From Candidatus Acidulodesulfobacterium acidiphilum (GTDB lineage: Bacteria; SZUA-79; Acidulodesulfobacterales; Acidulodesulfobacteraceae), in NCBI GenBank assembly GCA_008534395.1, contig SHMQ01000002.1:1-64000 (forward strand): a stretch of DNA of 64,000 bases, given 5' to 3'. Positions within the stretch are counted from its first letter, which is position 1; each line of letters starts with the position of its first letter. The notes under the pieces are model-generated. The model saw only the letters and a list, made by a program, of their open reading frames with translations, searched no databases and was not told where the DNA came from. Both the position numbers and the translations under genes were made by a program. Positions 24,416 through 41,191 of this stretch are shown piece by piece.

Positions 24416-25126
24416 TTATTTTGCTTCAAAACGCAATATTTTCTGCACTACGGCGTTAAGCAAACCGCTTGTAAGCTGTCCCGTCCAATGAAAAACTATT
24501 TTATGGTGCATTATAAAAAACGATTGAGGAACTTCGTTTATTCCGCCGTAGTCTTGCAATTCCAAAATATTTGCGTGGACTATAGGATAAGTTAAGCCGT
24601 CGTCAAACTGTTCGACGAAGTTTTTGACTCCGTTTTTAAGGACGTTTACGTTTATGCCTATTATCAATACGTTCTTTTTATTTCTTTTATAAAATCTATT
24701 AAGCATAGGCAATTCCGCCCGGCAAGGCGGACACCAAGTAGCCCAAAAATTTAATATAATTACTTTTTTATGGATTTTGTTTAAATCGATATATTTATAT
24801 CCGGAAAGTTTAGGGTTAAACACGTTGCCTCTTATATTTGGAGCCTTTGGCGTATAAGCGTAGGATTTTTGAGATAAAGCAAAAAAGGCGAGAAATAAAA
24901 CAATTAACGAAAGAGCAGTCTTAAAATAACTTCTTTGTATAGTATTTTTTTTACGGACCAAATAAAAATTTTTATAATGTTGATATATATAATGTTCTTT
25001 CGTTAAGGAATCTACAATATCCGATAAAACCTCTTTAGAAAATTTTGACTTCGACTGTAATGCCGTAAAAGTAATACCCGGATTTTCCGATATAATCTTG
25101 CAAACTAATTTTTGATAACTATCCAC
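24416..25126 (-). CDS. wHTH - transmembrane - TlpA-type thioredoxin fusion
   Basis: 236 residues, starting at GTG 25126 with GGAGG upstream. Residues 1-60 look like a winged helix: two helices, ITFTALQSKSKFSKEVLSDI as a putative recognition region, and a wing near YIYQHYKNFYLV. Residues about 67-87 are one membrane span. Residues 95-236 are a TlpA/ResA-like thioredoxin with FWATWCPPCRAELP (Cys132 and Cys135) and cis-Pro in EVPQSFFI. The topology places DNA binding in the cytoplasm and the thiol pair in the periplasm, like ToxR-type one-component regulators. This combination is unusual. It is the first gene upstream of the tra operon and has its own promoter. Confidence 0.8.
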   Translation of the reverse strand: MDSYQKLVCKIISENPGITFTALQSKSKFSKEVLSDIVDSLTKEHYIYQHYKNFYLVRKKNTIQRSYFKTALSLIVLFLAFFALSQKSYAYTPKAPNIRGNVFNPKLSGYKYIDLNKIHKKVIILNFWATWCPPCRAELPMLNRFYKRNKKNVLIIGINVNVLKNGVKNFVEQFDDGLTYPIVHANILELQDYGGINEVPQSFFIMHHKIVFHWTGQLTSGLLNAVVQKILRFEAK

Positions 25127-25203: not shown

Positions 25204-25890
25204 TTAAATAACATTAGAAATTTGTCCAAATCCAAGTCCCATTTTATATCCTAAAAATTCAGGCAAGCGATAATTTGATATAAAAGATAAATACATAACA
25301 GGCAAAATTTTGTCTTTATATTTAATATTTTTAAAAACGAATTGATTATTTTGATTTTGAAAATAAATTTCTATTTTATCTAACAAATCAAATGGCAATT
25401 CGCTATTTAAATATTCTTTTGCTTGAAAAATAACGCTGTCTATTATTCTGCGCTTAAGATATTTTATAAAATCGGTTTTATCGCTTTTTTGGGAAACGTT
25501 AAACAATATCTTATATTCGGTATTATTAACTCCCAGAACGAATGGCGTTCTGCTCTTATAAAATACCATTTCCTTTTTATCTGCAAACGATAGGTAATTG
25601 TCGTAACTTACATCTACCTTATTGATTTTTTCGCCGTAACAAACAAAATTTCCTGAATTTAATTTATTGGCTAAATCGCCTATAACATCTATAGACTCTT
25701 TATCTGATTTTGCAAATGTGATTTCAAAAATATTTCGATAAGGTTTAGAATAAATAACAGGCGATAGACCCTTACCATGATACATAACAAAATCTTTATC
25801 TTTTTCATCTGCGATAGAACCAATAAAATTTCTGATATCTCTTGAATCAAAACCGGATAAATTATTTGATAACGTAACTTTAATTTTCAT
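25204..25890 (-). CDS. Cas6-like CRISPR RNA endonuclease (Csf5-like)
   Basis: 228 residues. Cas6-type features: beta-rich N-terminal half, a C-terminal half with FLGYKMGLGFGQISN as the Gly-rich loop close to the C-terminus, and length in the Cas6/Csf5 range. It would cut the pre-crRNA within repeats. It is the last gene of the type IV operon, and the CRISPR array lies directly upstream, with the nearest repeat ending 22 bp before ATG 25890 and AGGAGG in between. A catalytic His is not certain by eye. Called from the glycine loop plus locus context. Confidence 0.78.
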   Translation of the reverse strand: MKIKVTLSNNLSGFDSRDIRNFIGSIADEKDKDFVMYHGKGLSPVIYSKPYRNIFEITFAKSDKESIDVIGDLANKLNSGNFVCYGEKINKVDVSYDNYLSFADKKEMVFYKSRTPFVLGVNNTEYKILFNVSQKSDKTDFIKYLKRRIIDSVIFQAKEYLNSELPFDLLDKIEIYFQNQNNQFVFKNIKYKDKILPVMYLSFISNYRLPEFLGYKMGLGFGQISNVI

Positions 25891-25912: not shown

Positions 25913-26803
25913 ATTTTAACCTCACATATGTTAAACTCATACTACGATACAAAATGGTATTCTAATCCAACCTATTACTTTTAACCCCACATATGTTAAA
26001 CTTATACGCGCAAGGCACGCAGGGAACGCAGCTTGTAAATTCCCTCTTTTAACCTCACATATATTAAACTCATACCTATTTAAATAATCCCTTATAGAAC
26101 GTCTGATAGACTTTTAACCTCACATATATTAAACTCATACAGAGATGCATCCTTGTCTCATATAGTTGATGGAGAATTCTTTTAACCTCACATATGTTAA
26201 ACTCATACGAGAATTTTCGTCTCAAATTATTCCTGAAGAACCCGACTTTTAACCTCACATATATTAAACTCATACTCTCGAAAATCGACACGCTCTTTTA
26301 GTCGGTGTCAGCTTTTAACCCCACATATGTTAAACTTATACCGGTTCTTCTAATGTATGAAACCGGCGCCCGTATCGCTTTTAACCCCACATATATTAAA
26401 CTCATACTCCGCCCAAACCGATGCCGAAAAATTTTTTATGACCTTTTAACCTCACATATATTAAACTCATACACAAGTCATCTTATAAATTGTAATTTCA
26501 GCTAATCCCTTTTAACCCCACATATGTTAAACTCATACGTTACAAGGACGATATTAAATTTCCGGCGATAACTACTTTTAACCTCACATATGTTAAACTT
26601 ATAGTAAACGCTATCCGTTTCCATTATCAAGCCCTTACAAACCTTTTAACCCCACATATGTTAAACTTATACCAAGATTTTTTATCGACTTTACTTTGAA
26701 TATCTTAACTTTTAACCCCACATATGTTAAACTTATACTTGTAGTACCTGTAGCAAGTTCGGCGTTCGACATTCTTTTAACCCCACATATGTTAAACTTA
26801 TAC
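25913..26803 (-). CRISPR. Type IV-associated CRISPR array, 14 repeats, 13 spacers
   Basis: Fourteen 30-nt repeats; on the + strand they begin CTTTTAACC(T/C)CACATAT and end TTAAACT(C/T)ATAC. Spacers are 35-38 nt. First bases of repeats: 25913, 25978, 26046, 26111, 26179, 26246, 26312, 26378, 26443, 26509, 26575, 26643, 26709, 26774. Polymorphic sites are CCTC/CCCC, ATATG/ATATA and CTC/CTT. The three rightmost repeats are identical, and the leftmost has its outer base changed (A for C), so transcription from the right on the minus strand fits. The repeat can fold by TTTAAC pairing with GTTAAA. It lies inside the cas operon. Confidence 0.97.
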
Positions 26804-26855
26804 CCAAATTTTACCAAATGAAATCAAATAACTGCCGACCAAATCATCTTTTTTC

Positions 26856-26901
26856 GTCTGTCGCACTTGAGTAATGCAAAAATATCAGAAGAGCGACAGA
26901 C
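26856..26901 (-). promoter_or_regulatory. Inverted repeat in the putative CRISPR leader
   Basis: GTCTGTCGC (26856-26864) and its exact complement GCGACAGAC (26893-26901) enclose 28 nt; the stem extends to 12 bp with one mismatch. It occupies the 105-bp gap between csf2 and the first repeat, which would be the leader if transcription runs on the minus strand. No U-run follows, so it may be a regulatory or protein-binding hairpin rather than a terminator. Confidence 0.5.
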
Positions 26902-26908
26902 AATCAAA

Positions 26909-27967
26909 TTATTCCTGAGCATCATCATCGGCAGATGTTTTAAAATATTTTTCTATATTTATGTTTTCTGCGGATATATTATCAAGCCATTTGTCCGCCT
27001 CCGTAATAGCCTTCCGTTGTTCGCTTGTATATTGCGGTTTCACGTTTACGTTAAACGTATATTCATCGTCAGACCGGGACTGAAGAAAAGGATTGCCGTA
27101 ATCTCCGTCTATGAACATATCGTAATTGATTACTCCCCAGCTTTTTTGGGTAGAACCTACCCTCGCCGCAGCAAAAATCTCAAGCGTTTTTAGAAGTAAA
27201 CCATATTCATATTCTTCAATTAGGTATCTGTCAGGCAATTGCATAATCGAGCTATGCAAAGTTATGCCCGGGACGATGTACTCTTTGCTTATCAACATTT
27301 GTATGGAAGTCTTGTCATCTTCTTTATCTACTTTTATCTGTTCCTGATAGGCTTGTAATTCCTCTAATGTAAATACTTTCGTTGCAGTTACGGAAACATT
27401 TCTTAAATCGTCCATATGCGCTATGTTCATTTCTTGTATATACGACGGTTTTTTAATATCAAAATTTATCGTCCTATGATCAACTTGTTTTTCAATTATA
27501 TCAGTAGTAGGTATAAAGTTATTAATGGCTATTTTGCCAGAAATGATAAGTCCTGTTCCAAATACAGATATTACGGGATTCAACTTTCTTATTTCATTTA
27601 AATCTTTTGCATTTCTTTTCGTTTGCTTTTTATCTTTATTCTTATCGGCGTCGACGTCGTTGTCACTCTCGCTTTTATTGTCTTTATTTTTTTTCTTGTT
27701 TTTTTTCTGGTTTACGCCGCCTCCATTAGACATCAAAGAAAAATCGGCGGGCGTAAGCTTTATGCCCTTGGATAGGGCTTTCTCCAACAAAAGCTCAGTC
27801 ATAATCCTGCGCAATTTTCCGTTTACTCCGTTTGCAGGCAGATAACCTACCTCGTAAAGAGTGTTCCCAATACACACAACTAATTTTTTGATGTAAATGT
27901 TGCCTTTGTCGGCACTATCGATAATGCCTACCGGTGTTTTAGTGACTGCCCTAATGTCAATTCTCAT
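26909..27967 (-). CDS. csf2: Csf2 (Cas7-like backbone), type IV CRISPR
   Basis: 352 residues. Core features of Csf2: GVNGKLRRIMTELLL near 46-60, NPVISVFGTGLIISGKIAI after the insert, then EEYEYGLLLKTLEIFAAARVG, which carries the usual Gly/Ala-rich turn. A hydrophilic Lys/Asp insert lies at about 87-122. Csf2 polymerises along the crRNA in the type IV effector. GGAGG RBS. The order on the minus strand is csf3-csf1 fusion, dinG, csf2, array, cas6. The family call combines motifs with location. Confidence 0.85.
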   Translation of the reverse strand: MRIDIRAVTKTPVGIIDSADKGNIYIKKLVVCIGNTLYEVGYLPANGVNGKLRRIMTELLLEKALSKGIKLTPADFSLMSNGGGVNQKKNKKKNKDNKSESDNDVDADKNKDKKQTKRNAKDLNEIRKLNPVISVFGTGLIISGKIAINNFIPTTDIIEKQVDHRTINFDIKKPSYIQEMNIAHMDDLRNVSVTATKVFTLEELQAYQEQIKVDKEDDKTSIQMLISKEYIVPGITLHSSIMQLPDRYLIEEYEYGLLLKTLEIFAAARVGSTQKSWGVINYDMFIDGDYGNPFLQSRSDDEYTFNVNVKPQYTSEQRKAITEADKWLDNISAENINIEKYFKTSADDDAQE

Positions 27968-27998: not shown

Positions 27999-29771
27999 TT
28001 AGATTAATTTGCCTATGTTTTTAAAAATTCTATTTAATCTGGCTTTGATTCTTTCGTCGTTTATTCTTGCGTCAAGTATGTATATATCGCCTTTATCGTC
28101 AGGTCTTCTCTGAAGCCTTCCGAGACTTTGGCGGGTTATAAACAGCATGTCGTTATAAACGGTATTCCAGTAATATCCGTCATTGAAAGCTTTCTTGTCT
28201 TGCATGTCTTTGTCGTTGATCGGGGGAAATAAAAGTTTTGTTATATATAACTTTTCAAGTTCGTCTCCGGGCAAATCGATGCCCGTTGCATAAGTTCTCG
28301 TTCCTATCAATATTCCGCCCTCAAGTTTAAATTTATTAATAGTTTGGGCTTGCGTCATCGTATAGTCAGCTTTAATGATGTTTGTATTTGGCAAAAGTTT
28401 TATTAATGCAGAATGTAGCGCCTTAACTTCCGCATAACTTCCGGCTATTACCAACGAATTTTTGTTTTCAAACGTTTTATTTATGTAACTGGCTATGCCG
28501 TCAACCCATTCCGCATCCGGCGTCCCGTCGTCAGACATATTTTTATTTTTCTTTACAAGATAATCAGTGTGTATCTTGATATTATCCGTAGGAAATAGTC
28601 TTGGTTCGCTTTTAATTATTACTTTATCTTTTAGTCCGCTAAGACCAAGTTTTTTAATTATATAATCGCCGTTATCCATTTCTATGCTTTGAGAAAATTC
28701 TTTTTTATCGGCAGGCGGCGGGACAGTAAAAAGAGTTCCCGATACGCCGACAAATCCAGATAAACTTTTAAAAAAATTATATAAACCCGATTGAACGCTT
28801 TGCGACTGAAAATGGACAGTCGGATAACCCTTAGCAGGCGAATAATACAAAGAAATATTTTCTTCGCTATTAACTATGGTGTTAAGTTCTGTATACTCCT
28901 GTAAAAAAATCTTTGCGTATCTGTCGGTTTTTAGTTCTTTAATTAATTTCGTTAATTTTTTTCGAGACGACGCAAATTTAGTTAAATCGTCCAGATAATC
29001 TTTAAATAAGCGCTTGTCCGTTACATACGAGTCGATTTTATTTTCGTCCTTATATTTTTTAAGTAATACAGACGATTCTTTATAGATTTTACCGAGATAT
29101 GTTTTTGCCGTTCTGTCAATTTTGCTTTTTCCTATTATTCTTTTTAGCGAAGTTGTAAATCGTGAAACAGAAAAACTCGAAGTAGAAATTAATTTCTGAG
29201 CTTCGTACATTTTATCCACTTCGTCGGACAATATGTAATATTCCGATAAATCGACGTTTTTATTGTATCTAAGCATTATAAGAAAAACATGATTGGTGAT
29301 TGATACATCATATTCAGATACGCTGTCCAAATCTTGCCTGTTGTCTGCATGATAGATATTTGATACTACTAATTTGTCGTCGTCGTTTAAAAGGCAATTC
29401 CTGTACAACTCTTCAAACGTTATATTTTTATTTAAAGTTTTAGCGTATTCAATTACTTTATCCGGATACGTAAAATAAGAATAAAACTCGTCGTCTATTT
29501 TGTTTAAATCTAAATAATTTTCCGCTCCGATTACTATGCCTACTTTCAAATTAGGGAATCTTTCCTTGAAATCTAAAAATAGCTTGTCGGCTAAAGAATT
29601 GGTAAAAGTAGATATTATAACCTTCCTGTCTTTAAGAAGCTCCACTGCGATATGAGGCAATAAATAACTTGATTTGCCGAATCCGGTTGATAATTCATGC
29701 AAATGAATAAATTTTCTCCTTGCATTTTCTACTGCTATTTTTAAAATTTCCGTCTGCTTTTTGCTTAACAT
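27999..29771 (-). CDS. csf4: DinG/CasDinG-like helicase (Csf4), type IV-A signature
   Basis: 590 residues, an XPD/DinG-type superfamily 2 helicase. Walker A is ELSTGFGKSS (Lys33), motif II reads LSDEVDK, and motif VI is TRQSLGRLQRRPDDKGD. The region where DinG binds an iron-sulphur cluster has only one Cys, so the cluster is absent, as described for CasDinG with its vestigial domain. DinG is the accessory helicase that defines type IV-A and is needed for its interference. It is located between the csf3-csf1 fusion and csf2. No nuclease domain is seen. Confidence 0.9.
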   Translation of the reverse strand: MLSKKQTEILKIAVENARRKFIHLHELSTGFGKSSYLLPHIAVELLKDRKVIISTFTNSLADKLFLDFKERFPNLKVGIVIGAENYLDLNKIDDEFYSYFTYPDKVIEYAKTLNKNITFEELYRNCLLNDDDKLVVSNIYHADNRQDLDSVSEYDVSITNHVFLIMLRYNKNVDLSEYYILSDEVDKMYEAQKLISTSSFSVSRFTTSLKRIIGKSKIDRTAKTYLGKIYKESSVLLKKYKDENKIDSYVTDKRLFKDYLDDLTKFASSRKKLTKLIKELKTDRYAKIFLQEYTELNTIVNSEENISLYYSPAKGYPTVHFQSQSVQSGLYNFFKSLSGFVGVSGTLFTVPPPADKKEFSQSIEMDNGDYIIKKLGLSGLKDKVIIKSEPRLFPTDNIKIHTDYLVKKNKNMSDDGTPDAEWVDGIASYINKTFENKNSLVIAGSYAEVKALHSALIKLLPNTNIIKADYTMTQAQTINKFKLEGGILIGTRTYATGIDLPGDELEKLYITKLLFPPINDKDMQDKKAFNDGYYWNTVYNDMLFITRQSLGRLQRRPDDKGDIYILDARINDERIKARLNRIFKNIGKLI

Positions 29772-29781
29772 TTCATCCCCC

Positions 29782-31224
29782 TTAATTGAATGGATAAATA
29801 ATTTTTAGTAAATTAAGAATATCGTGCGTGTATTTAGCCTTAAAACCGATATATTTGTTTTTGGAATATAAATAATCCGTTTTGTCTTCAGAATTATCCA
29901 GTTCCTCTACCGCTTTTAGAAACATTTCGGTATCTATCGTCATAACGCCGTATTGCTTGTTTGCTATTTGAAACATTGCATTACTGACATTGACGCTTGA
30001 CTTGAAAACAAGATGTGCGCCGTTGGAATCATTTTTTATAGTTATAAGAAACGGCGGCGTTTTATCTTTAATATTTTTGTAAAATTGAAGTTTTGTTTCC
30101 CTAATTTTATTTTTGATTAAGTTGTCGAATTTTTCTTTTGTCATACCTGCCGGACGCTGAGTATTTTCTTTCACCGCTTTATCTAAATTTCCGCCGCCTA
30201 TATAGATTTTTTCATTGTTAGAAATAAACAAATTTGCCGTTTTATTATAATTTTCGCTGTGTTCGATTGCCTTGCAATAATCGCAGACATAATCTCCCGC
30301 TTCTACGAATCCAAAATCCGTAAAAGTCTTCGGAAATATTTTTTCTTTTTCTTTTGTATCTCTTTTAATTCCGTCACTCCCGCCGCACATTATACAAATA
30401 TGTTTTTTTTCAGATGTTTCAGGAACAAACGGCTTTTTTTCGTACGTGAAAGAAAACATATCCTTTGTGTTTTTGTACATAAATTCCGTTGAACTCATAA
30501 AATCCATTGTGGTAATACTTTTAAATCCTTTATCCCAAGAAACGTCTTTTTCTTCCGTGTAATACATAGGCGGCATATAACAAGCAACCTTATTTTCTTT
30601 TAGCCAATAAGGCGGATAAAATCTATAAAACATAACTCTATGGGTATTTACCGAAAATTTAGAACATGGAAGAGGTTTAGAAACAGTAGTTGCATTTAAT
30701 AAAATACCTTTGTTTTCATCGATTACTTCTACTTCAGGATCATCGTCCGCAAATCCAAAACCTATTTTTGCTTTTTTTCCAAGATATTTAACTTCTTTTA
30801 ATAAATCCAATATTTTGTCTTTATGTCCCGTTACATAAAAATAAATTTTCGGCAAAACCAATATTGGAAAAATTAAATTATAGGCCTTATACTGACCTTT
30901 ATCGGTAATAAATTTTTTATCGGTAAAAAACCCATGCTTTTTATATTCTTCGTGTTTCATAGACTTAAACATCCTGTATTCACTTTTGTAGATAGGGCTA
31001 TCTTTGTCTGCGTACCATATAGAACCTGATATAATTCCGTTTTTTATTTCGAGAAACTTGCCTATCTCGTCCAAAAAATCTTCCGTTTTAATAAAATCCG
31101 TAATATTCTTTTCCTCTTTGTATTTTTTAAAAAAGACAGAAAGCAAAATAGAATCTATCGTCGTAAATCTATTTTGAAATATTGCAGGACTTTCAAGATT
31201 AAAAGTTATTTTTAAATTTTCCAC
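29782..31224 (-). CDS. Putative Csf3-Csf1 (Cas5-Cas8-like) fusion
   Basis: 480 residues, starting at GTG 31224 (GGAG upstream). Residues 1 to about 225 resemble Csf3/Cas5: FNLESPAIF, TTIDSILLSVFF near 21-32 and a KAKIGFGFA glycine turn near 151-159. From about 270 the protein carries a four-Cys zinc-finger pattern, CIMC (277-280) and CDYC (314-317), then an alpha/beta part to 480, as in Csf1, the small Cas8-like subunit. In the type IV-A operons I know these are two genes of about 220-250 residues each. Here one frame contains both and no other csf1 or csf3 is present, so a fusion is the simplest reading. It is the first gene of the cas operon. Confidence 0.68.
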   Translation of the reverse strand: MENLKITFNLESPAIFQNRFTTIDSILLSVFFKKYKEEKNITDFIKTEDFLDEIGKFLEIKNGIISGSIWYADKDSPIYKSEYRMFKSMKHEEYKKHGFFTDKKFITDKGQYKAYNLIFPILVLPKIYFYVTGHKDKILDLLKEVKYLGKKAKIGFGFADDDPEVEVIDENKGILLNATTVSKPLPCSKFSVNTHRVMFYRFYPPYWLKENKVACYMPPMYYTEEKDVSWDKGFKSITTMDFMSSTEFMYKNTKDMFSFTYEKKPFVPETSEKKHICIMCGGSDGIKRDTKEKEKIFPKTFTDFGFVEAGDYVCDYCKAIEHSENYNKTANLFISNNEKIYIGGGNLDKAVKENTQRPAGMTKEKFDNLIKNKIRETKLQFYKNIKDKTPPFLITIKNDSNGAHLVFKSSVNVSNAMFQIANKQYGVMTIDTEMFLKAVEELDNSEDKTDYLYSKNKYIGFKAKYTHDILNLLKIIYPFN

Positions 31225-31487: not shown

Positions 31488-32174
31488 TTATTTTTTAAAA
31501 AAACCAAAGAATCTGCAAAATTTTGACATATTGATATTTTCGAGAAATTCTTTGGCTTCGGTATTGTTATTTAAAAAAAAGTCCTTATTTTTCTTATAGT
31601 CCATAACTTTTAACTTATGATTATATTTTTCTAACATCCAGCCGCCGGAATCGTCCCTTGATGCCGTTTCGGAAACTATGTCTATATCTACGGATAGCCC
31701 TTTTTTTCTTATGGTCTTTTTAATATCGTCGAATATGCCTTTTAATTCGTTATTCATGCGATAATCGGTTACCGTTACGCCGTGGAGCGTAGTTTCGCCG
31801 GTTAAATAGAAAAAAGCCTTGCATATAGCCGTCCGGTGATTGCCGTCTCCGCCTATATAAAGTTCTCCGCCGTCGATACTCTGATAATACATAGATGGGA
31901 TTTTCTTTTTGGTCTGCCTGTAATAATCGGGATTAGTTTTAAAAAAATTAAGATTAAGCGCCATTCTTTTGCCTGTTTCCAGAAATTCCAACCATGTTAA
32001 ACCCGCATAATCCGGATGTTGAGTTCCTTTAACCCTAAATATGTTAACCGAAGCACTATCCTGCCAGAATGATTCCTTTACGAAACGCATATCTGGAGCA
32101 GTCCACTTGTCTATCTGGCGGTTTAGTATTTCAGGATTAACATCTTTAATTTCTTTTAATAAATCATTGACCAT
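31488..32174 (-). CDS. ParB-like nuclease-fold protein
   Basis: 228 residues. IDGGELYIGGDGNHRTAICKAFFY (around 120-143) is the GxxR-type motif (GNHRT) of ParB/Srx-like folds found in phage and plasmid proteins. WLEFLETGKRMA and a WTAPDMRF segment flank it. No partition HTH is seen, so it is not a canonical ParB. GAGG RBS. It is part of the replication/modification block, between an RHH-like gene and rusA. Function unknown; the motif suggests nucleotide or DNA processing. Confidence 0.5.
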   Translation of the reverse strand: MVNDLLKEIKDVNPEILNRQIDKWTAPDMRFVKESFWQDSASVNIFRVKGTQHPDYAGLTWLEFLETGKRMALNLNFFKTNPDYYRQTKKKIPSMYYQSIDGGELYIGGDGNHRTAICKAFFYLTGETTLHGVTVTDYRMNNELKGIFDDIKKTIRKKGLSVDIDIVSETASRDDSGGWMLEKYNHKLKVMDYKKNKDFFLNNNTEAKEFLENINMSKFCRFFGFFKK

Positions 32175-32579: not shown

Positions 32580-33216
32580 TAATTTTTACCCCCACTATTT
32601 TATTTTTTGATTTTTTATCGACAAGCGACAGTTTCGGTTTGTACCCGTCGATTATTTTTATGATATCTTCCTGTTCTACAAACTGCTTTAGTTCGGCAAC
32701 GTATATTTTTCCCTTGAAATCTTCCCATCTTTCGTTATTGATTTCTATTATTCCTGAAAAATAATTTGGAGCGTCGTAATTACCGTTAGATTCCGCAAAC
32801 ACCTTATAGCTTTCGATAAAATCCCTTTTTTTCCAGTGGGTTTCCGTTCTGTTACACCCACACAATTCTACGTCATAATCTATAAGCGAAATCGCCTTTC
32901 TAATAGCCTTATCCTTGAAAGTAAAGCTTTCATATATGCCGCATACGTCTATTACGTTTAAAACGTAACTCCAAGCTAATTCCGCCATAACATGAATATC
33001 AGTCTTGTTTTTAACTTTTTTCAATATATCGGCGATAGTAGGCATATATGATATTTCCTGCGTGCAGGATTTTAAAGCGTGAAGGACATTATCGATAGGA
33101 TATTCTTTAAGGGAACTGATATAAATCTCAAGAACGCCTTCGGATAAATTCCTGTTAAAGAGTTCGGCGCACACCATTAATGCGTTTTTAATCCTTAATT
33201 TTTCATCATTATTCAT
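32572..33216 (-). CDS. Replication-associated protein, possible helicase loader
   Basis: 214 residues, mostly helical. The first part (ALMVCAELFNRNLSEGVLEIYISSL, KEYPIDNVLHALKSC, YMPTIADILKKVKN) resembles the phage replication proteins found next to replisome organizers, which bind the helicase or its loader. GCGGGG RBS; its ATG overlaps the replisome organizer stop (ATGA-type overlap with 33213). RusA follows. This trio is typical of phage replication modules. No P-loop is present, so it is not a DnaC-like ATPase. Identity is inferred from order and helix pattern. Confidence 0.55.
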   Translation of the reverse strand: MNNDEKLRIKNALMVCAELFNRNLSEGVLEIYISSLKEYPIDNVLHALKSCTQEISYMPTIADILKKVKNKTDIHVMAELAWSYVLNVIDVCGIYESFTFKDKAIRKAISLIDYDVELCGCNRTETHWKKRDFIESYKVFAESNGNYDAPNYFSGIIEINNERWEDFKGKIYVAELKQFVEQEDIIKIIDGYKPKLSLVDKKSKNKIVGVKINV

Positions 33217-36029: not shown

Positions 36030-36860
36030 TTAAAACAAATTTAACTGTTCTCCTTTATTTTTTATTCTTCTTTTAACTGTTTTTTGCTTATTTTTCTTAA
36101 AATTACAGTTACTTGCACTTCTTAAAGCGCCGCCGACGCCCGCGGTTAAAGCAAGCGATTTCTTAAGTGCATCCGTAACGCCAAATCCGCCGTCTTCTAA
36201 AATTCTGCAAAACTCGTCCATTATAGGAATTCCGTCAGGGGTAACCATATTTACGATATTAGGAACGTTTTCCATAGCCAAAGCTTTAGGCTTCATCTCG
36301 GATATAAACCTTGCATATTCAAAAACCAAACTATTTCTGGGATCCAATACGTTGCGTTTTCCAAGAGTCGAAAATCCTTGACACGGTGGAGAGCCGACCA
36401 TTAAATCCAACTCGCCGGGTTTAATTCCTAATTCGCTCATAATCCTATCCGACGACAATTTCCTTACGTCTCCGACGAATATATATTTAACCCCTTCAAA
36501 CCACGCGGGGCATACTTTATGACGATTATTGCCGGAAACTTCCATATGAACGATGCCGTCTTCCGTTTTAGTCATCATTTTTTGAAAATACTTTTCGGCG
36601 CGTTCCCTGTCGGATTCTTCGACAAATATCATTTTAAGCGGATACGCCCCTAAATTTATAGAATATGTATGAACGGCCGCTATGTCCCATTCTGCCGCCG
36701 CTATTACGTTAATACCCGCATTGATTAAACCTAAGCTAAATCCGCCAATGCCCGAAAAGAAATCCATCGCTATCAAACGTTTTTCGGGTAAACAAGTTTT
36801 TGGAATAATTAAACCTGACGAATTTCTATAAAAATTATCTTCGTTAAAAAGTAAATTCAT
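36030..36860 (-). CDS. C5-cytosine DNA methyltransferase, C-terminally short
   Basis: 276 residues. Motif I MDFFSGIGGFSLGLINAG, motif IV GSPPCQGFSTLG with the catalytic Cys, motif VI ALAMENVPN. The usual order continues with motif VIII (QxRxR), the target-recognition domain and motifs IX-X. Here the protein turns into a basic tail (SNCNFKKNKQKTVKRR) after about residue 240 and these motifs are not seen. The N-terminal half would bind SAM and carry the nucleophile but lacks the recognition part. It may be inactive, or complemented by another chain. It neighbours a Dam-type enzyme. Confidence 0.82.
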   Translation of the reverse strand: MNLLFNEDNFYRNSSGLIIPKTCLPEKRLIAMDFFSGIGGFSLGLINAGINVIAAAEWDIAAVHTYSINLGAYPLKMIFVEESDRERAEKYFQKMMTKTEDGIVHMEVSGNNRHKVCPAWFEGVKYIFVGDVRKLSSDRIMSELGIKPGELDLMVGSPPCQGFSTLGKRNVLDPRNSLVFEYARFISEMKPKALAMENVPNIVNMVTPDGIPIMDEFCRILEDGGFGVTDALKKSLALTAGVGGALRSASNCNFKKNKQKTVKRRIKNKGEQLNLF

Positions 36861-36899
36861 ATTAATTTACGCCTCCGCAAAGAGCGGTATCTGCCCCTG

Positions 36900-37715
36900 C
36901 TAGTTTAAATCGTAATTAGCCCAGACGGTTTCCGTCCGTTCAGGACAGTTATTTTTATTCCTATACCTCAAGCTATTAGCAAGACAATTAAAATCCTGCC
37001 TGTAAAAGCCTGAAAGCCTTTTGTTATAAATATCGTTATCGTAGCCGCTTAAAAGCCATTTACCTTTAATACTTAAAAGAATATCGATAAGGTCGTTGTG
37101 GTCTTTATCCGTCATCTCGAACATATAACCGCCGCTCTTGCGGGAACTTGCCACGTAAGGCGGGTCGAGATAGAAAAACGTATCGGGGCGGTCCCAGTTA
37201 GCGATTAATTTTCTGAAATCCAAATTATCAATATAAACATCCGAAAGTCTTTTGTGTATTAAATTTAATTTATCAATGCTATTTCTAATGTATTTTGGTA
37301 TATTCACGTCTATCGAAAACCGCCAACCGGCTCCTTTCTTGGCGTTAGGATGTTCGCCGTTTATCGTTGATTTAATCAGATAATAAAACCTTACCGCCCG
37401 CTCTGCTTTGTTAAGCTTATCCGTCCGCATATCACGATATTCGTAATAGCATTCGCGGGAATACGGCAATAAACTTATTTTCTCTTGAAATTTCTTAAAC
37501 AGCTTTCCGTCCGCTATAACCTTAAAAAAATTATAAAGTTCGCCGTCTATATCGTTATAAACTTCGATTTCGGACGGCTCTTTATTTATCAGTATCGCGC
37601 CGGACCCGCCGAAAACTTCGACGTAAGTTTTATGTTTCGGAAATAAAGGCATTAACTTATCCGCCATAAAAAATTTGCCGCCGAAGTAGCCGAATGGAGT
37701 TAATTTTGTTTTCAT
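36900..37715 (-). CDS. D12-class N6-adenine DNA methyltransferase (Dam-like)
   Basis: 271 residues. PFGYFGGKFFMADKLMPLFP at the N-terminus and YVEVFGGSGAILINKEP are motifs X/I of alpha-class adenine methyltransferases. DPPYVASSRKSGG is motif IV (DPPY). Length is typical of Dam/MboIIA-type enzymes. The target is most often GATC in this group, but that cannot be read here. It lies upstream of the C5 enzyme in a module of phage-like genes, a usual anti-restriction arrangement. Confidence 0.92.
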   Translation of the reverse strand: MKTKLTPFGYFGGKFFMADKLMPLFPKHKTYVEVFGGSGAILINKEPSEIEVYNDIDGELYNFFKVIADGKLFKKFQEKISLLPYSRECYYEYRDMRTDKLNKAERAVRFYYLIKSTINGEHPNAKKGAGWRFSIDVNIPKYIRNSIDKLNLIHKRLSDVYIDNLDFRKLIANWDRPDTFFYLDPPYVASSRKSGGYMFEMTDKDHNDLIDILLSIKGKWLLSGYDNDIYNKRLSGFYRQDFNCLANSLRYRNKNNCPERTETVWANYDLN

Positions 37716-39416: not shown

Positions 39417-40112
39417 ATGAAATCAATTAATACGGAATTGTATAAACAAATAGCAGAAAAAATTAAATCTGCTATTAAAGAAAAGAATGTAACGCAAGAA
39501 CAAATCGCAAGTAAGTTAAATATATCGGCTCAACAATTTCAAGCTTATATTAATAAATTTGATAAAAATAAAATTCCACTTGATTATTTGATAGAAATAG
39601 CTAATTTTTTAAATATTAGCCCTGAATATTTTTACAAAAAAAATCAAAATATAATTCCTTCCGCTTCCTGTATTTCAGAATCTCAAGCCGACGACTTAAG
39701 TCTCGACAAATCCAAATATCAAACCATTCCCGTTTATTCTTTTGCCGGCGCCGGAAAATTTGTAAATTTAACCGAAATCGAGCCTATTGATACGCTTTTA
39801 GTCCCGAAAGAATTTATTAAGAAAAAATTAGCCGTAGTAAAAGTAATCGGTCCAAGCATGGAGCCTTATATAAAAGACGGCTCTTATGTAGGAATTGACT
39901 TAAATTACAAAGAACTCGTATCGGGATATATTTATTGCGTTAATTTAGACTATGAAGGCGCTCTTATCAAATACGTCATTAAAGACAGGAACGGCATAAC
40001 TCTTAAATCGGAAAATCCTAAATTTCACGATATATTTATTAAAAAAGAAGAGATTGCCGACGGGGATCACTTTGTAATAGGACGAGTTGTCTGGGTGTGG
40101 CAGAACATATGA
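39417..40112 (+). CDS. CI/LexA-type repressor with S24 peptidase domain
   Basis: 231 residues. HTH_3 domain at 1-70 (KEKNVTQEQIASKLNISAQQ then FQAYINK). The C-terminal part is the S24 self-cleaving domain: cleavage region YSFAGAGKF (108-115), catalytic Ser147 in GPSMEPYI and Lys185 in ALIKYV. RecA-stimulated cleavage would link induction to DNA damage. It is the first plus-strand gene after the divergent early operon. It is the probable master repressor of the replication module. Confidence 0.92.
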   Translation: MKSINTELYKQIAEKIKSAIKEKNVTQEQIASKLNISAQQFQAYINKFDKNKIPLDYLIEIANFLNISPEYFYKKNQNIIPSASCISESQADDLSLDKSKYQTIPVYSFAGAGKFVNLTEIEPIDTLLVPKEFIKKKLAVVKVIGPSMEPYIKDGSYVGIDLNYKELVSGYIYCVNLDYEGALIKYVIKDRNGITLKSENPKFHDIFIKKEEIADGDHFVIGRVVWVWQNI

Positions 40113-40225: not shown

Positions 40226-40254
40226 TTGACAATAAAGGCTATAAAAAATACAAT
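40226..40254 (+). promoter_or_regulatory. Sigma70-type promoter for the methyltransferase operon
   Basis: TTGACA (40226-40231), 17-bp spacer, TACAAT (40249-40254). The expected start is near 40261, leaving a leader of about 25 nt with GGGGG before ATG 40286. This placement rules out the longer TTG-started reading, since its start lies within the -35 box. Confidence 0.8.
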
Positions 40255-40285
40255 AAATATCAATGATTTCACGGGGGAAATAAAT

Positions 40286-41191
40286 ATGGAAGAAGTCGGT
40301 TTAATAGAACCGGTCGTATCGGTATCGTCGGTATCTGGTCCTTATTCTTTTAATATATTACCCGAATCAATTTCCGAACAGCCATGCGAAATTATTCCTT
40401 ATAAGCGCAAACCTAATCTAAACGAGCTATTAAATAAAATTATTAACGAAGATGCGTTAATCGGATTAAAAAATATTCCGGACGAATCAGTCGATGTCGT
40501 TATTACCGATCCGCCTTACGGCATTGCCAAAAAAAATTCGTTTAAAGATAAAAGCCACGGGACATTCAAGGCTTTAGATTCCGAATGGGATATTTTTCCT
40601 TCGAAAAATCATTATATCAAGTTTACCGAAAACTGGATTAAAGAATGTTGTAGAATATTAAAGCCGACAGGCTCTATCGCGGTTTGGGGAAGCAGGATAA
40701 GCATTTTCGACGTTCAACCCGTTCTCTCGCAATTTTTCCCGAAATTTCTGGATATGCTTACGTGGATAAAAAGGGATTCTCCGCCGAATATGACCCGAAG
40801 AGGAATGGCTCCGTCCACGGAATTTTGCCTTATATTTACCAAAGCAGAAAAAGGCTGGACTTTTAATCACGACGATATTAAAAGGTATAACGACGGCAAA
40901 CAAATGAGAAATTACGTAGATATTCAAAGGACGATGCCTGCCGAGGAAAGAACCGGACACCCTACTCAAAAGAAAATCGAAACGCAACTTCTTTTAGTAG
41001 AAATGTTAAGCAATAAAAACGAGATAGTATTAGATCCATTTACGGGAAGCGGAACGTTGCCTGTTGCCTGTCTTAAAACCGACAGAAATTTTATCGGATT
41101 TGAATTAAACAAGGAATATTATGCCGTCGCTAAAAATAGAATAAAAAAACTTATAAATGTTAACGATAAACACAAAAGAAACCGATATTGA
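40286..41191 (+). CDS. Beta-class DNA methyltransferase (N4-cytosine or N6-adenine)
   Basis: 301 residues from ATG 40286. The order is motif IV first (VVITDPPYGIAKK) and motif I later (VLDPFTGSGTLPVAC), which defines beta-class enzymes. HPTQKKIETQLLLVEML (motif X-like) lies between, and the N-terminal 45 residues are variable. DPPY favours adenine, but the N4-cytosine group cannot be excluded. Its 3' end overlaps the next plus-strand gene by 35 bp, so the two are co-transcribed and may form a restriction-modification pair. Confidence 0.9.
   Translation: MEEVGLIEPVVSVSSVSGPYSFNILPESISEQPCEIIPYKRKPNLNELLNKIINEDALIGLKNIPDESVDVVITDPPYGIAKKNSFKDKSHGTFKALDSEWDIFPSKNHYIKFTENWIKECCRILKPTGSIAVWGSRISIFDVQPVLSQFFPKFLDMLTWIKRDSPPNMTRRGMAPSTEFCLIFTKAEKGWTFNHDDIKRYNDGKQMRNYVDIQRTMPAEERTGHPTQKKIETQLLLVEMLSNKNEIVLDPFTGSGTLPVACLKTDRNFIGFELNKEYYAVAKNRIKKLINVNDKHKRNRY

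Follow-up and report, generated by a model that had tools for sequence, protein, structure and literature searches.

The window, by which we mean the whole 64,000-nucleotide stretch of Candidatus Acidulodesulfobacterium acidiphilum DNA analysed here, encodes on its minus strand a co-directional set of CRISPR components in the order fusion-dinG-csf2-array-cas6. The set begins with a single gene for a 480-residue Csf3-Csf1 (Cas5-Cas8) fusion (29782..31224), which starts with GTG, has AAGGAG upstream, and matches the PADLOC model Csf3-Csf1_0_IVE (PDLC01726) over residues 1-446 at 5e-62. Next on the same strand are dinG (csf4; 590 aa; 27999..29771), for which the best model is Csf4_3_IVE (PDLC01732), and csf2 (Cas7; 352 aa; 26909..27967), which is matched by PDLC01724 (2e-27) and TIGR03115 (4.1e-10). 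The DinG protein has intact Walker A, DEVD and QxxGRxxR motifs and a single cysteine, and therefore cannot hold a four-Cys iron-sulfur cluster. A probable leader, assigned from its position between csf2 and the first repeat (26804..26908, minus strand), is followed by a CRISPR array of 14 repeats of 30 nt and 13 spacers of 35-38 nt (25913..26803, minus strand, with the first repeat at 26803), and finally by cas6 (228 aa; 25204..25890, minus strand), which matches Cas6_1_IVE (PDLC01712) at 2.7e-33. The RNA hairpin of this repeat was no better than those of its shuffles.

No cas1 was seen among the ORFs surrounding these genes. A chromosomal Cas1 is present in the same genome and was considered as a source of adaptation, but the 36-nt repeat of its array is unrelated, and the proposal is unsupported. 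That chromosomal CRISPR locus (contig C10, L061:6491-12990) encodes a Cas_NE0113 protein and Cas1, which is adjoined by a 1018-aa protein in which reverse transcriptase, TPR and TOTE-type primase domains are fused; the array nearby holds at least 46 copies of the 36-nt repeat. Within the window, a repeat-like stretch at 32015-32047, inside the ORF at 31488-32174, has more than 3 mismatches over 23 nt; as a candidate stray CRISPR repeat it was absent from a pattern search allowing 3 mismatches, and the resemblance is probably due to chance.

The initial annotation had read the first gene of the set as carrying Csf3-like and Csf1-like parts, making its product a type IV effector subunit in which Cas5 and Cas8 are fused, and had named beforehand a separate profile search of the two halves as one of the tests that could refute this. 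Both halves, searched alone, matched their own Csf families and the reading proved right: residues 1-240 matched cas5_csf3 (TIGR03116) at 1.7e-11 and residues 260-480 matched cas8u_csf1 (TIGR03114) at 5.3e-9, with no other NCBIfam match for either. Neither score reaches the NCBI equivalog cut-off (140 bits), which is unsurprising in a divergent subtype. Together with PDLC01727 (over residues 1-219) and PDLC01721 (over residues 268-443), these matches place the Csf3 (Cas5) half at residues 1-220 (30565..31224) and the Csf1 (Cas8) half at residues 268-480 (29785..30423), with the gap that separates the two profile matches marking a linker at about residues 221-267 (30424..30564), all on the minus strand. 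In addition, a profile built from seven fusions reached the solved IV-A Csf3 (7xfz) at 1.7e-5 and the solved IV-A Csf1 (8rc3) at 2.2e-4, each with the expected half. The four-Cys finger (CIMC...CDYC) that had been noted in the Csf1 part was indeed found, in an alignment of the fusions, at residues 277-317 (30274..30396, minus strand; C277/C280 and C314/C317). It is kept in relatives from the host's own family and incomplete in that of the Campylobacter concisus plasmid pICON (NZ_CP021643.1), and thus cannot be essential in every IV-E system. An AlphaFold2 model of the fusion, made with four close homologues, had a mean pLDDT of 34.9 and was unusable, so the two-domain assignment rests on sequence profiles rather than on structure; at that level, the gene is confirmed as joining Csf3 (Cas5) and Csf1 (Cas8) in one protein. 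Searches of the 2.09-Mb genome with Csf1 and Csf3 models recovered no second csf1 or csf3, the fusion being the sole match, and the annotation's statement that no other copy lies beside dinG, csf2 and cas6 is thereby borne out; separate csf1 or csf3 genes elsewhere on the element, which would have refuted the reading, were likewise not found.

Subtype IV-E was reportedly defined in one earlier paper. A csf1-csf3 fusion is among the type IV variants known by 2021 (review, PMC8175902), a 2020 paper cites the proposal of IV-E (PMC7434947), and CasDinG is described as a signature of both IV-A and IV-E (2024 review, PMC11127173). The features of IV-E are found together in the window: a fusion in the order Csf3-Csf1, Csf2, a DinG and a Cas6 of IV-E type, and an array, to which the genome-wide lack of separate csf1 and csf3 genes can be added. 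For example, DinG matches its IV-E model at 4.8e-59 as compared to 1.2e-43 for the PADLOC model associated with IV-A, and the IV-E model is the sole type IV Cas6 model among the matches listed for Cas6. Features of IV-A, namely separate csf1 and csf3 genes and a 5′-AAN PAM, are lacking, with 11 of 12 protospacers carrying 5′-CCN. The pICON fusion matches Csf3-Csf1_0_IVE over its whole length at 2.5e-253, suggesting that the pICON locus, or one near it, is probably the source of the PADLOC model. Judged from these pairwise and profile scores, the fusion corresponds to a hallmark that had already been named for CRISPR subtype IV-E, and the locus is a further IV-E member. The possibility, left open in the initial annotation, that the system falls outside the existing type IV subtypes is therefore unsupported, given that PADLOC has a fused Csf3-Csf1 model for IV-E and the window matches it.

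Of 30 host-family genomes 8 carry the fusion, among them the window's own, and a single full-length relative, that of pICON, was found among 72,556 plasmid records. Identity to the window's protein ranges from 73% down to 28%. Neither a protein query nor an alignment query detected relatives in IMG/VR, and DinG had no match when searched against phages. Gene order varies: the window's lineage has fusion-dinG-csf2-array-cas6, a second has dinG-csf2-cas6-fusion and a third has fusion-dinG-csf2-cas6. One gene encodes both halves through all of these arrangements and that of pICON, an argument for selection on the linkage. Near-identical IV-E loci also occur in different genomes, in one pair belonging to different genera, as would be expected of mobile elements.

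The window is part of a 138-kb contig. TraG (TraG_N), TraC and a TrbI-like protein are encoded within the window, and a relaxase of TrwC type and a coupling protein of TraD type beyond it. An integrase-like gene lies at about 123.6 kb (a weak Pfam match, obtained from a search with the N-terminal part only), and after it come tRNA-Thr, tRNA-Glu, tmRNA and housekeeping genes. No terminal repeat is present on the contig, which reads as a conjugative element integrated next to chromosome. The element also carries methyltransferase genes at 36030-37715 and 40226-41191, one cytosine-5-like by eye, one of the D12 class and one of the N6_N4 class by Pfam, which possibly serve an anti-restriction role.

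Protospacers for five of the 13 window spacers were identified in related genomes, and all of them are in genes of conjugative or mobile elements. Spacer 1 (26739..26773) matches a parA-like gene in three related genomes (5′-CCA), spacer 7 (26342..26377) matches a tyrosine recombinase gene exactly in one genome (5′-CCT), spacer 9 (26209..26245) a gene for a TraD/TrwB coupling protein (5′-CCT), spacer 10 (26141..26178) traG (5′-CCC), and spacer 11 (26076..26110) a small gene downstream of a TraG-like ORF (5′-CCG), all five spacers being on the minus strand. Mismatches number 2-6 in most protospacers. When searched against collections of phages and plasmids, the window array gave chance-level matches or none, and the C. 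concisus spacers, searched against plasmids and phages, found the array itself or nothing. The window is in turn matched at four sites, with 3-6 mismatches, by spacers of other IV-E arrays from the host family. Two of these sites lie next to each other in a thioredoxin-like gene (24633..24706), are targeted by spacers from two other IV-E arrays and are both flanked by 5′-CCN; the remaining sites are at 32709-32738 and 39532-39562. One more IV-E spacer has an exact match in the gene next to the fusion at a third IV-E locus. Thus, IV-E carriers seem to target each other as well as other conjugative elements. In near-identical arrays the distal spacers are shared and the leader-side spacers differ, which points to recent acquisition. 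Separately, the first spacer of a related IV-E array (L023; ATCTATTTTAATGAATTAAG...) hits a small haem-binding-like gene, present in multiple copies, at its 3′ end. Such sites were found in several genomes, among them the window's own (on two contigs), and their flanks vary.

To describe the sequence next to the targets we pooled the four arrays of the window's lineage, in which 12 spacers had a retained match. C occupies both -3 and -2 in 11 of the 12, against a background C frequency of 0.17, and the one protospacer lacking CC has 6 mismatches; a further spacer, whose target is a multicopy chromosomal gene with flanks that differ, was excluded after inspection of the data, and keeping it would make the count 11 of 13. 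At the same threshold, 106 shuffled spacers gave 0 matches. The window's lineage therefore appears to need 5′-CCN beside its targets, a motif that the array itself lacks because the repeat ends in AAG. No PAM for IV-E was found in the literature searched. For the IV-E lineage with 36-nt repeats the counts are 6 of 6 for T at -3 and 5 of 6 for T at -2; as the DNA is AT-rich, this is only suggestive of a 5′-TTN PAM. An IV-E lineage other than the window's (L021:1-11548 and L022:1-15917) has two arrays at one locus, with repeats of about 35 and 36 nt that are similar but not identical, spacers mostly of 29-32 nt, and a possible 5′-TTN PAM. Evenly poised, in our judgement, is the proposition that the IV-E conjugative elements of the family exclude one another through arrays aimed at each other's backbones, and that the PAM has shifted between lineages in step with the fused Cas5-Cas8 reader.

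Taken together, we assign a probability of roughly 90% to the reading that the window holds a complete IV-E system on an integrative conjugative element of an uncultured bacterium, with a fused PAM reader, DinG-based silencing, and spacers aimed at rivals. The gene content, the halves of the fusion and its conservation, the spacer targets and the 5′-CCN motif are demonstrated here at the level of sequence, and the operation of the system can be proposed by analogy with IV-A. PAM reading in IV-A1 and IV-A3 is shared by a thumb loop of Cas5 and a zinc-finger domain at the start of Cas8, DinG is afterwards recruited to the displaced strand, and a 1:1 ratio of Cas5 to Cas8 is used for the complexes (PMC11519345). 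About 55 residues separate the Cas5 half of the fusion from the start of its Cas8 finger, such that the covalent link would join the two parts of the PAM reader; by this analogy, doing so seems a stronger rationale for the fusion than the fixed 1:1 stoichiometry offered in the initial annotation, which nevertheless fits the IV-A ratio. Cas6 would cut the array transcript into crRNAs built from the 30-nt repeats and 35-38-nt spacers, on which Csf2 (Cas7) would form the backbone while the fused Csf3-Csf1 caps the 5′ handle. The Cas5 thumb loop and Cas8 zinc finger of the fusion would then recognise 5′-CCN and open the DNA, and DinG would be loaded on the displaced strand to block transcription or replication. 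The spacers are directed against rival conjugative elements, other IV-E carriers among them, in genes for partition, recombinase and transfer functions, and the outcome, as in IV-A, would be silencing or loss of these elements with no cleavage by the complex itself.

Other explanations were weighed against this one. Internal starts occur in other class 1 systems, and the single ORF could give rise to two separate polypeptides, through such a start or through proteolysis, making the complex functionally an ordinary IV-A-like one. Several in-frame ATG codons do lie between the halves, at residues 217-279; however, none of them is preceded within 20 bases by a clear ribosome-binding site, whereas the GTG start has AAGGAG, and the fused frame is kept in every fusion locus, even at the lowest identity. 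We therefore regard two separate products as unlikely. Less likely still is a type IV-A system whose csf3 and csf1 fused independently, outside the IV-E lineage. It would account for the DinG, array and cas6, which are common to IV-A, for the matches of the fusion, DinG and Csf2 to general type IV models of NCBIfam, and for the match of DinG to a model associated with IV-A, but that match is weaker than the one to the IV-E model, Cas6 matches the IV-E model only, among the type IV Cas6 models listed, and the fusion, DinG, Csf2 and Cas6 are all homologous to the pICON set of C. concisus.

The least probable alternative, and in our view a very improbable one, is that the system mainly regulates genes of its own host or element instead of excluding rivals. 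There is some precedent, in that an IV-A1 crRNA of Pseudomonas oleovorans is reported to control a chromosomal target (PMC11551745), and a spacer from one relative has its match in a chromosomal gene of multiple copies. In the window's own 138-kb contig, however, each of the 13 spacers has at least 11 mismatches to any site outside the array, the other matches found in this genome are short and no better than chance, and the five matched spacers fall in genes of mobile elements. An IV-E system directed at rival elements is thus our preferred reading.

Because the fusion was already named, the locus is not the first of its kind. The new elements are an IV-E copy on a conjugative element, guides against rival conjugative elements, and an apparent need for 5′-CCN. 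IV-E is little described in the literature searched, and it gains a testable candidate PAM (5′-CCN), natural targets together with the spacers that match them, and a number of related loci that differ in gene order and repeat, and is thereby open to direct test. The fused Cas5-Cas8 may offer a simple system for studying PAM reading, a task that is split between two proteins in IV-A.

Among known systems, that of pICON is carried by a plasmid and resembles the window in encoding a fused Csf3-Csf1 (28-29% identity to the window's), an IV-E type Cas6, Csf2, DinG and a CRISPR array. Its arrangement is different, with a divergent dinG and then fusion-cas6-csf2-array, whereas the window has dinG and csf2 directly after the fusion and cas6 last. 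The second Cys pair of the finger is missing in pICON and the repeat is another one, with a hairpin that scores above shuffles in pICON only. The IV-A1 and IV-A3 systems (7xfz, 8rc3) share with the window Csf1, Csf2, Csf3, Cas6/Csf5, DinG, anti-plasmid spacers and a locus without adaptation genes, but their Csf1 and Csf3 are separate proteins, and the IV-A PAM is reported as 3′-TTN-5′ on the target strand, equivalent to 5′-AAN on the other (PMC11519345), in contrast to the 5′-CCN that we infer for the window's lineage. Similarly, the unfused type IV system of the Sulfuricystis multivorans plasmid pSTJ2 (NZ_AP018720.1) has homologous Csf3, Csf2 and DinG, although its Csf3 is a separate 222-aa protein and its Cas6 is of the Cas6e type.
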